Assembly (NCBI GenBank): GCA_003345555.1
Contig: PRDJ01000026.1
Span: forward strand, 1 to 41,863
Length of the DNA stretch: 41,863 bases
Direction: 5' to 3'
DNA from: Candidatus Thorarchaeota archaeon
GTDB lineage: Archaea; Asgardarchaeota; Thorarchaeia; Thorarchaeales; Thorarchaeaceae
In this document: piece by piece, positions 2,333 to 12,284 of the stretch
Numbering within the stretch: the first letter of the stretch is position 1
Layout: every line of letters begins with the position of its first letter
Notes under the pieces: generated by a model
What the model saw: the letters and a program-made list of their open reading frames with translations, nothing else
The model's database searches: none
Told to the model about the DNA's origin: nothing
Program-made: the position numbers and the translations under genes

Positions 2333-5107
2333 TCAGTATAGCTGCACAGGGATCCAGATTGTTCGCCACTCAGATGCCAGTGTGGGCTCGCCAGATGTAA
2401 CTCCATCCCAGAATAGGATACGAATCTGATAGTTCATTCCGGGCCGAAGGGTGACATCTTCAGAGCTTGAAGCGCCTAGCGGTAGGAAGAACTCTGTGAT
2501 GTTCGTACCGGTTGCGAAGTGAGTAGCATTGGCGCCGCCAGTGTCATAGGACCAGTCGCCGTTATAGTCTATGTGGCCGTCGTAGGCCTGGTGACCTTGG
2601 TAGTTGATAATGCGCAGGTCTGACTTGTCAACTGAGCCCAACGGGGCAATCTGTATGCCTAGAGCATCGTTGCCCGTCTGGTAGCCGGGCAGATTGACAC
2701 CAAAGTATATGCGACTGGAGTTGCCTTGGATGTAGACTTTCGCGTCAAACCCGCTTCCCAAGACTGCATCAAAGCTCGCGAATGCCTTCTCACCAGTAGA
2801 CAGGACACCGTCCATTTTGGCAGACGTAAGGTCACCAATCTTTGGTGCCCACTGGGCATTGGTTCTGTTGATGTAATGATAGTACATCGTGTAGTCGATA
2901 TCATAGATCTTGACGAGACCATAGTCTGAGCTAACATAGGCATTCGTGAATGCGCCATGCAAGTCAACTGGCATGTGACCAATCCAGCGAGAGTCGTACA
3001 TATAGCCACCATTATACTCATCGACACTCAGGCGAGCTGAACTGAGGCCCATGGAATTGCCCTCATCTGGACTCGTGGGTTCTCCATAAGACAGCAGCTT
3101 GAACAGTGTTGACGAGTAGAATGCGTCGAGTGTGTAATCGGTCTCGTGAATACTGGTGGTCGATGGATCATCACCTAGATATGTGGCATCATCTATCGTC
3201 TTGGTTCCGAGATAGTCCTCAGCGATACGAACCATCCAAGGCCATTTTCCATCATCCCCACCGAACCCAGCGATCTCATGTCCCCAGTAGACGAGTATCT
3301 GTGTTGCGTTCCAAAGCTTGAAAATCCTAAGGGACTCGGTGAGATTGAGTGCCATCAAAGCATAGCCCATCAGAGCTATCTGAGTGCCGTTGATGGTTGC
3401 ATTATCAACAACTGTGTCGGCTCCGCCTGCGCCGTTTATCCAGTATCCATAATCCCACCAGCTCGCAACTGTGGCTCCACTAGGCATGACGCTGCGTACG
3501 TGTGTCATGGCAGTCTGCCAGTCCCGCCACTGCCCTGAAGTCGAATAGATACTGATGGGAGCAAACTCGGGACCGCCCATGTTTACACCATACTGAATTC
3601 CCAAATAGACATTGACCGAAAGCAGAAGACCGACGAACGTGAATGCTGCGAGTGCATGTTCTGATGTCAAGGATGTACTAATCCTGAATCGTCGACGCTC
3701 AAAAACCGACTTCTGAGCAACGACCTTAGCGAACGGTGCAAGAACGAAATCCACCGCGACTGCTGCAAGCAAAGCTACTGCAGGAGCCAGAATGAGACCA
3801 AGACGAATCATGCTACCGGTGAAGTATACTGCGGCCAATCCAAACAGCACAACAAGCCAGTCTTCGTCCTTACCTCTCTTAAACAGGAAATACATACCGA
3901 GAGGAAACAGGAATATTAAGACTGAAAGTGTCTGATAGAAGCTCGCCCAAGGAGCGGGCAGATGCTCGGCGACGGAGTTGAAGATTCGCTGCTCTAATCT
4001 GAAAAATGGATTTATTACAGCCAAGAACTTCCCGCCTACGAACGTTATAGGATTAGACCCGACTGTTGATATTGACAGGTTCTGACTTGTTTCGTAGGCG
4101 AAGTATGCAGCGACTCCCACGATAGGGGCTACTAAGCCGAGTAGAATTGGTTTTGCGTGGGGTGCAAGAGCGCCTGCGGTGGCGTGACGGTATCTCGCTA
4201 CCCGTAGCCACACCTCATAGCACGCAAGCACGGCCCCGACACCGACGGGAGCAAGGAATGCGAGAGATGTGAGAGTACCCGAAGTCTCGAAACTGCTTCT
4301 AGGCAGCAAACCTCCTATAAACAGCCCAATGCTGAGTGTGATTAGGTAGCTAGACAGAAGCCGCCTGCTGTATCGACCCGTGACCAGCATGAGTGCTCCA
4401 AAAAGTGCGAATAGATCGGTTAGAAAATCGGAAGCACCCCATGAAATCTGAAGATAGCCTAAGCAAAGTCCTGCAGCTACAGCGGATGGCAAAGATCCCC
4501 TCTTGAGAGCGCGAACAAAGAACAAGAGTGTGATGACGATTGCAAAGATACCAACAGACTCGTTATCAAAAAAGCCGGCAGTGGTTCTCTGTATGTAAGC
4601 CGGCATGAATGCCATGAACAACGAGCTCAATAGGCCGACGGCCTTGTTTGAGAGTTCCTTGCCCAGAAAGAACGTGATCAGTGTCGTGCATGCGCCCATG
4701 AATGAGGACATCATTATAGAGACCGTTAACACATCGATGCTGATGCCGAGGCCATTAACAATGAAGTATAGTGTCGCAGCTGTAAACGGCACACCAATGT
4801 ATGTCGAAGCAGGAATGCTGCGGCCGAACGGAACCCAGCTGGTATAATCGTACCAGCTGAAGAAGGATGCGTAACCATTTGCCGCGACGTACTCTGTCAC
4901 TTTGAGCTGGTACCAGCAGTCAAACTCGTGGACTACTGGCTGCGAGCTCATCATAGGCGCCAGACGGACTGCCAAGGCCGCAAAGAACAGAATCGTAAGT
5001 GCGACTACTAGGAGAATAGAGCCTCTAGATATCTTCGCCTTTGGTTTATGGAAGACCTGTCGGAACAGCCTTCCGATTGATTTCTTGAAGCTTCTGAGAC
5101 TCGGCAT
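2333..5107 (-). CDS. aglB: Oligosaccharyltransferase catalytic subunit STT3/AglB
   Basis: A 924-residue membrane enzyme that transfers a lipid-linked glycan to Asn in N-x-S/T sequons outside the cell. About 13 hydrophobic helices occupy the first half and a soluble domain the rest. The catalytic motif WWDYG lies at 550-554, an acidic HEFD motif follows the first helix and the DNE motif (GFFDNE) is in the second luminal-type loop, both expected for STT3 metal and lipid-phosphate binding. The ATG at 5107 has GGAG eight bases upstream; a TTG at 5146 would add 13 residues. It is a single gene, tail to tail with nop10. Two possible partner subunits lie elsewhere in the window. Confidence 0.93.
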   Translation of the reverse strand: MPSLRSFKKSIGRLFRQVFHKPKAKISRGSILLVVALTILFFAALAVRLAPMMSSQPVVHEFDCWYQLKVTEYVAANGYASFFSWYDYTSWVPFGRSIPASTYIGVPFTAATLYFIVNGLGISIDVLTVSIMMSSFMGACTTLITFFLGKELSNKAVGLLSSLFMAFMPAYIQRTTAGFFDNESVGIFAIVITLLFFVRALKRGSLPSAVAAGLCLGYLQISWGASDFLTDLFALFGALMLVTGRYSRRLLSSYLITLSIGLFIGGLLPRSSFETSGTLTSLAFLAPVGVGAVLACYEVWLRVARYRHATAGALAPHAKPILLGLVAPIVGVAAYFAYETSQNLSISTVGSNPITFVGGKFLAVINPFFRLEQRIFNSVAEHLPAPWASFYQTLSVLIFLFPLGMYFLFKRGKDEDWLVVLFGLAAVYFTGSMIRLGLILAPAVALLAAVAVDFVLAPFAKVVAQKSVFERRRFRISTSLTSEHALAAFTFVGLLLSVNVYLGIQYGVNMGGPEFAPISIYSTSGQWRDWQTAMTHVRSVMPSGATVASWWDYGYWINGAGGADTVVDNATINGTQIALMGYALMALNLTESLRIFKLWNATQILVYWGHEIAGFGGDDGKWPWMVRIAEDYLGTKTIDDATYLGDDPSTTSIHETDYTLDAFYSSTLFKLLSYGEPTSPDEGNSMGLSSARLSVDEYNGGYMYDSRWIGHMPVDLHGAFTNAYVSSDYGLVKIYDIDYTMYYHYINRTNAQWAPKIGDLTSAKMDGVLSTGEKAFASFDAVLGSGFDAKVYIQGNSSRIYFGVNLPGYQTGNDALGIQIAPLGSVDKSDLRIINYQGHQAYDGHIDYNGDWSYDTGGANATHFATGTNITEFFLPLGASSSEDVTLRPGMNYQIRILFWDGVTSGEPTLASEWRTIWIPVQLY

Positions 5108-5213
5108 ACGGCGTTCTCCGTTCGGAGCTGCTTTCGACCGACGCAATCTTGGATGCGCTAAAAAGGTTGCTGTTCGTAGAGCTATCGTACATCAATGTCT
5201 GGACAAAAAGCGG

Positions 5214-8980: not shown

Positions 8981-9424
8981 CTAAGTCTTCAGACCATAGA
9001 GGTAGCTGATGATAAGGAACGCAGTCCCTGCGAGTACTGCGCCAAGAATCATCAGACGAGTTGCATATCCCGGCTGGAAAACGTACTTGGAAGCGAGGTA
9101 GATCAGTCCGACACCAACAGTACCGATGAATATCACAGATGAGGCTACGATTCCTTCTAGTCCTAGCTGAACATCAATACTGGGTGCAATCAAGATGGGA
9201 TTGCTTGATGCATCAACGGCAATTGCCGGAGGAGTCTTGACAAGAGTGTAGATGTTGCCGCCGAGGATGAATAGAACAGCCAGAAACATTGCTCCGAAGA
9301 TGACTATGTCAGGAGGACGTGCTGGCATGCGAAACCGGGGTCTTGAAAGCCGGACTCTTGGTTTAATGATGAACCGCGGCCACCATACGGGCAACTGACG
9401 AACCTCGCGGGCAGAGTCATGCAT
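8981..9424 (-). CDS. Three-helix membrane protein, candidate OST3/OST6-like subunit
   Basis: A 147-residue protein with a basic N-terminus and three predicted transmembrane helices (about 38-57, 88-110 and 119-143). The pattern GGNIYTLVKTPP after the first helix, a short loop ending in Q-x2-x-EG-x-I before the second helix, and RLMILG before the third recall by eye the last three helices of eukaryotic OST3/OST6 (SGxMWNxIRxPP, QFxxE, RRIxxLG). The thioredoxin domain of the eukaryotic protein is absent. If correct it would partner the STT3 in this window. The start is uncertain: a TATA-like run abuts the ATG at 9424 and Met33 (9328) is an alternative. Otherwise it is an unassigned membrane protein. 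Confidence 0.6.
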   Translation of the reverse strand: MHDSAREVRQLPVWWPRFIIKPRVRLSRPRFRMPARPPDIVIFGAMFLAVLFILGGNIYTLVKTPPAIAVDASSNPILIAPSIDVQLGLEGIVASSVIFIGTVGVGLIYLASKYVFQPGYATRLMILGAVLAGTAFLIISYLYGLKT

Positions 9425-11676: not shown

Positions 11677-11906
11677 CGGAGTGTCCCATCTGCTTCCGCC
11701 AGTCCATGAACGGCACTGAACTCTGTGAATATCATGAGGAGGCACTCACTAGACTTCGTGCTGCATTCGCAGAATGGGAGAAAGCTCTGGGTGTTGGATG
11801 GATAGATTACCTATCATTAGTGTATCGAACTCAGGAGCTGGGATTGTGGGTCCGCGAGATAGTGGCTTATCTCACCTCAAGAAGTGCTGCTTCAATGCTT
11901 TCGTGA
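11673..11906 (+). CDS. Small zinc-binding protein coupled to topoisomerase I
   Basis: I do not recognise a named family. The 77-residue product starts with a probable zinc site, C4-x2-C7 and C18-x2-H21, followed by a mostly helical tail. The ATG overlaps the topA stop in an ATGA arrangement, so translation is probably coupled and a role with the topoisomerase or DNA is possible (inference). Its last 35 bases overlap the end of the convergent gene at 11872. It could be an adaptor or a remnant zinc domain. Confidence 0.7.
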   Translation: MTECPICFRQSMNGTELCEYHEEALTRLRAAFAEWEKALGVGWIDYLSLVYRTQELGLWVREIVAYLTSRSAASMLS

Positions 11907-12216
11907 TATCGACCATAAGAGCCCGGGTCAGATCCTTCACGGCTATTATCATCATGCACATGCGGCCAGTGCTCTTGGCAACATTCTCTGCGAGAATGCG
12001 GACCTGCATGGCATCTTCTCCAAGCGAAAGAAACCCTGTTGATGTCGGTTCCCCGCGGCCCTGACCTGCTGGAATTGCCACTGCTGATAGCCCTAATCGA
12101 AAACGCTCGGCGTCAGATATCAGCACTAGCAGTCCATTCTCAAGGTCCATTAATCTAACTCTCAGACGACCGTGCTCCGTTTCGTGTTCAAAATCACGGA
12201 CATCATCAAGTGCCAT
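11872..12216 (-). CDS. Candidate PAC4-like proteasome assembly chaperone
   Basis: A 114-residue soluble protein. By eye its order of elements follows human PSMG4/PAC4: a strand ending RLMDLENGLLVLIS, then FRLGLSAVAIP, then PTSTGFLSLGED, then a helix RILAENVAKSTGR, a strand MCMMIIAV and a final helix LMVDITKALKQ. PAC4 assists assembly of the 20S alpha ring. The ATG at 12216 is chosen because a TATA-like element on this strand sits near 12252-12258; a TTG at 12246 would add ten residues. It overlaps the topA-linked zinc gene tail to tail by 35 bases. The assignment is by pattern only and could instead be an unrelated alpha-beta protein. Confidence 0.6.
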   Translation of the reverse strand: MALDDVRDFEHETEHGRLRVRLMDLENGLLVLISDAERFRLGLSAVAIPAGQGRGEPTSTGFLSLGEDAMQVRILAENVAKSTGRMCMMIIAVKDLTRALMVDITKALKQHFLR

Positions 12217-12284
12217 TGTGCAAATCCCTGCTTGCACTAGGCGCAATTGACCATAAATCAGTAGCGAGCAGACCTGGAGACGCT

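Follow-up and report, generated by a model that had tools for sequence, protein, structure and literature searches.

A putative OSTC/DC2-type membrane protein encoded near STT3 in Asgard archaea

The locus and its genes

The window analysed here, a whole stretch of 41,863 nucleotides from a Candidatus Thorarchaeota genome, carries on its (-) strand an open reading frame at 8981..9424 (147 codons from the ATG at 9424) for a three-helix membrane protein, probably of the OSTC/DC2 type. A sequence-only reading of this DNA had recognized in it a thioredoxin-less relative of OST3/OST6, on the strength of GGNIYTLVKTPP, a Q/E pattern before helix 2 and the motif RLMILG, all of which are indeed present in the frame as quoted. 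The same reading had placed STT3 4 kb away, and the gene for this catalytic oligosaccharyltransferase (STT3/AglB; PF02516, E 2.1e-45), the presumed partner of the protein, is found at 2333..5146 on the same (-) strand, at a distance of 3.8 kb. It is the only STT3 copy in the genome. A search for ribophorin I gave no Pfam match there, a weak negative, since the control genomes gave no match over the cut-off either. The window also holds, at 11872-12246 (-), a 124-aa ORF (cluster c12) conserved beside topA and an XPD-like helicase in most f1 loci.

Where does translation of the three-helix protein begin? The ATG at 9424 has a GGAG directly against it, and a TTG at 9392..9394 (-) is preceded by a GAGGT ribosome-binding motif 7 nt upstream. 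This TTG aligns with the ATG, GTG or TTG of most family members, and most homologues of the same family start with MKPWWP..., with a conserved GAGGT before it. Ten loci of the family were compared: GAGGT (or AAGGT) precedes the start in nine of them, and in one homologue an in-frame stop lies shortly before the ATG. From this conserved context, translation probably starts at TTG 9394 rather than at ATG 9424, and the true gene probably spans 8981-9394, encoding 137 aa instead of 147.

Architecture of the predicted protein

An AF2 model computed from 35 sequences (mean pLDDT 73) contains three helices, at residues 37-62, 81-113 and 118-146, and a short hairpin. All features lie on the (-) strand. 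The basic N-terminal tail (9317..9394; residues 11-36, PVWWPRFIIKPRVRLSRPRFRMPAR) is predicted to be cytosolic and is the counterpart of the OSTC tail; residues 1-38 include 10 K/R and 2 D/E, an excess of basic residues which predicts that the N-terminus is inside, as in OSTC. Helix 1 (9239..9316; residues 37-62), seen both by AF2 and in the hydropathy profile, has GGNIYTLV at its end. It leads into a predicted extracytoplasmic beta-hairpin (9191..9223; residues 68-78), whose AF2 strands, 68-70 and 76-78, have modest pLDDT, and whose predicted position is that of the lumenal hairpin of OSTC. In the model and the alignment, helix 2 (9086..9184; residues 81-113) carries the invariant Glu 90, while helix 3 (8987..9073; residues 118-146), modelled with a pLDDT mostly above 80, carries Gly 128 and Lys 146, both invariant in the Asgard alignment. 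AF2 and hydropathy thus give three membrane helices, not the four of OST3/OST6.

Membership of the OST3/OST6/OSTC superfamily

Homology to the membrane half of OST3/OST6, which the first inspection had claimed by eye, is borne out by Pfam: the ORF scores 29.7 bits against PF04756 (OST3_OST6; curated cut-off 27, E 5.7e-7), and its match covers positions 183-288 of the 294 in the profile, that is, the membrane part alone. The description as thioredoxin-less holds too, and the protein is free of cysteine. No other Pfam family, and hence no better-fitting unrelated one, matches at E<=10, and NCBIfam returns no match. The PF04756 cut-off is passed by all eight of the diverse Asgard homologues scored (8/8). 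Human OSTC itself matches PF04756, again over the membrane half (37.8 bits), so Pfam is unable to separate the branches of the family. Full-length MAGT1 reaches 332 bits, against 49.7 for the best Asgard protein among the matches listed, on its membrane part alone.

Could the likeness simply be one of composition, in a three-helix membrane protein that is unrelated? Three-helix membrane proteins have little information content, and this one is short, hydrophobic and just over the Pfam cut-off. Against such a coincidence stand a BLASTP alignment of human OSTC with the homologue from Asgard genome G227 (33% identity over 143 residues, E 2e-15) and a profile built from 71 Asgard homologues, which finds OSTC with 75 bits (E 4e-20). 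Shuffling the OSTC loop never restored the true score (0/500); with the OSTC tail shuffled, the mean was 68.1 against a true score of 75.2, which 5/500 shuffles reached, a moderate result. As far as sequence statistics allow, chance resemblance is refuted, and we give it almost no credence.

OSTC as the nearest known relative

The sequence-only reading was right about the superfamily, though not about the nearest relative: sequence profiles, fold and reciprocal searches all indicate that the closest known relative of the window protein is OSTC/DC2, not OST3/OST6. When the window protein itself was compared with the PDB by phmmer, OSTC alone was matched, and weakly (E 0.009 and 0.39); the strong evidence stems from the Asgard family. 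A profile of 10 Asgard proteins matches OSTC in the PDB at E 1.9e-14 and matches none of MAGT1, TUSC3, OST3 or OST6 at E<=10, even though their chains are in the set. The 71-homologue profile gives 10 bits for the membrane part of yeast OST3 and 20 bits for that of MAGT1 (E 0.003), a weak score that favours a distant shared origin.

In the reverse direction, human OSTC as query retrieved the gene in all six Asgard genomes searched (6/6), with E values from 0.005 in the window's genome, a weak match, to 5e-14 in G227. The homology extends over nearly the whole length of OSTC, the G227 protein being 37% identical to residues 7-146. MAGT1 as query gave no match in those six genomes, in a search run without a positive control. 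With OSTC as query, phmmer retrieved neither MAGT1 nor OST3, so its eukaryotic paralogues are further from OSTC than the Asgard proteins. Structural comparison agrees: OSTC chains fill ranks 1-4 of the Foldseek search against the PDB (prob 1.00), followed by Ost6 (0.66) and MAGT1 (0.38), with modest scores throughout (best E 0.0095, TM 0.48-0.58).

Distribution and the search for thioredoxin fusions

The gene is near-universal in Asgard archaea, being found by profile search in 205 of 228 genomes, including 44 of the 45 good ones, and in 57 of 62 genera. Open frames among the matches listed are almost all of 139-219 aa. A thioredoxin domain fused to the protein, encoded upstream or split off from it was looked for and rejected. 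Frames of 336 and 219 aa, candidates for a thioredoxin fused or encoded upstream, are upstream read-through and not thioredoxin; a frame of 496 aa reported for G039 comprises 145 aa between stops in its DNA; and a split OST3 finds no backing in the seven Asgard thioredoxin-half matches examined, which are soluble stand-alone thioredoxins. No viral relatives were found.

These data bear on the idea of an OST3/OST6 orthologue that shed both its thioredoxin domain and its first helix within Asgard archaea, with the fusion seen in eukaryotes as the ancestral form. The shared Pfam family speaks for such a loss, and the membrane parts of MAGT1 and OST3 do align readily with the Asgard proteins, with the helix 2 Glu and the C-terminal Lys in common. 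The fusion form is, however, absent among the matches listed from the 228 Asgard genomes (rare low-scoring fusions may lie beyond these), every match is much nearer to OSTC than to either MAGT1 or OST3, and the thioredoxin-half matches belong to separate soluble proteins, so that we consider this loss improbable.

Pairs of paralogues comparable to STT3A/OSTC and STT3B/MAGT1 were also sought and set aside, nearly all of the tested genomes with two OSTC-like genes having a single STT3. Two OSTC-like genes occur in six genomes of the Lokiarchaeal genus g50 (G111, G112, G118, G120, G121 and G126; e.g. loci L003 and L095), with one STT3 detected in each except G118, where none was. A 'retextured' start and a longer tail are frequent in the second copy, and the two copies possibly reflect subfunctionalisation.

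Linkage to STT3

The gene is recurrently linked to STT3. Family f1 largely keeps the block topA - OSTC-like - mptE - folP-like - gcvT - gcvH - STT3, and in its loci examined STT3 is 1.9-3.9 kb away, mostly 3-4 kb and 1.9 kb in one. Beyond f1, f26 has STT3 at 4.2 kb and f17 at 6.8 kb, and in f29 STT3 is divergent, 254 bp from the OSTC-like gene. STT3 therefore lies within 7 kb of the gene in four Asgard families, and the linkage is absent from most of the other Asgard families examined. If each genome is taken to be about 3 Mb long with a single STT3, and families are treated as independent, about 0.1 of the 14 other families would be expected by chance to have STT3 within 10 kb; three were observed. 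Gene linkage is no proof of binding.

Two further features of these loci deserve mention. Among the Asgard OSTC-like genes, that of G227 (L031/L075, 4399-6979) bears the greatest similarity to human OSTC; it is divergent from STT3 at 254 bp, and the two genes may have a promoter region in common. As for STT3 itself, its frames measure about 720-930 aa in most other Asgard families and about 1290-1340 aa in the Lokiarchaeal f20 and f19, where they include a large extra part.

Order of events

In the free tree, MAGT1 and OST3 stand apart from the Asgard proteins and OSTC with support of 100/98; this split is weak, because MAGT1 and OST3 sit on long branches, and OSTC is represented by one sequence. 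An AU test does not reject a single clade of OSTC, MAGT1 and OST3 (p = 0.31). Both results matter for the possibility that the Asgard protein is of an undifferentiated ancestral type: eukaryotes would have duplicated one thioredoxin-less gene into OSTC, left unchanged, and OST3/OST6, to which thioredoxin was added, so that the Asgard protein would be equally orthologous to both and would resemble OSTC only because OSTC changed less. The AU test and the long branches of MAGT1 and OST3 speak for this, the free tree against it, although weakly for the reason given, and we rate it a serious contender at slightly under even chances. It is compatible with the biochemistry of the OSTC-type explanation.

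The sequence-only reading had further proposed that the membrane part existed before a thioredoxin domain was joined to it. The lack of any fusion among the matches listed from the 228 genomes agrees with this, and the Asgard data favour a thioredoxin-less ancestral form, yet the order of events cannot be proved from the tree. About evenly balanced, in our judgement, is the fuller scenario in which the archaeal ancestor of eukaryotes already had translocon-coupled N-glycosylation with an OSTC-type adaptor at its plasma membrane, OST3/OST6 arising later by fusion of a signal peptide, a thioredoxin domain and a first helix onto a copy. If true, OSTC, sometimes called vertebrate-only (PMC6929149), would be an older form than OST3/OST6. 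Kinship with OSTC (DC2) suggests that this docking subunit predates OST3/OST6 with their thioredoxin domain, and it provides a testable order in which the eukaryotic oligosaccharyltransferase had its adaptor before it gained a thioredoxin.

Proposed role

Mammalian DC2/OSTC is a partner of STT3A that tethers this enzyme to Sec61 and the translocon, while STT3B has a thioredoxin subunit instead (PMC8191290, PMC6929149, PMC7226087). The lumenal hairpin of OSTC contacts the SEC61 plug (PMC9892003). This mammalian role, combined with a predicted hairpin at the matching place, leads us to propose that the protein serves as an adaptor keeping STT3 at SecY. We judge it likely that the window protein belongs to the OSTC/DC2 branch within the OST3/OST6/OSTC superfamily, as an Asgard representative that would bind STT3 and couple it to SecY. 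The computations establish to which family it belongs, and its contacts with STT3 and SecY are inferred. The protein would lie in the plasma membrane, its basic tail facing inward and its hairpin outward, and would pack against STT3 at the site held by OSTC or MAGT1 in eukaryotes. Its hairpin and helices may touch SecY/SecE, and STT3 would thereby be kept at the export channel, glycosylating chains as they emerge. An oxidoreductase action like that of OST3/OST6 would be impossible for such a protein.

Comparison with known systems

A survey of 2016 reported no prokaryotic homologues (PMC4973528). Since then, 'OST3' has been published in Asgard archaea (PMC10307638, citing 2017 work; PMC8813620; PMC11417166), and in TACK as well (PMC11417166), so the presence of an OST3-family gene in Asgard archaea is not new. 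Models of the Asgard OST, Sec61 and TRAP (with the MK-D1 OST) overlay the human translocon, and MK-D1 OST3/6 expressed in HeLa cells goes to the ER (PMC11417166). In the literature searched, which covers the work of 2017-2018 incompletely, neither an OSTC/DC2 assignment of the Asgard gene nor its missing thioredoxin was found, though either may have been noticed.

Compared with OSTC/DC2, the Asgard protein is of similar length (137-147 vs 149 aa), with three helices, a basic tail, a hairpin between helices 1 and 2, the GG.(I/V)Y...P signature, a Glu in helix 2, a Lys at the C-terminus and no thioredoxin domain. It differs in that the identity of the window protein is low (about 26% over the matched part), and in its presumed location, an archaeal plasma membrane rather than the ER. 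With OST3/OST6, MAGT1 and TUSC3 it shares the Pfam family and the homologous last three helices, whereas those proteins have in addition a signal peptide, one more helix and, on the lumenal side, a thioredoxin domain with CxxC. None of these is present in the Asgard proteins, and no CxxC occurs among the 71 homologues. The eukaryotic signature protein published for Asgard archaea as OST3/6 is the same gene family; its published name suggests a redox subunit, whereas the OSTC-type reading predicts an adaptor between the glycosylation enzyme and the export channel.
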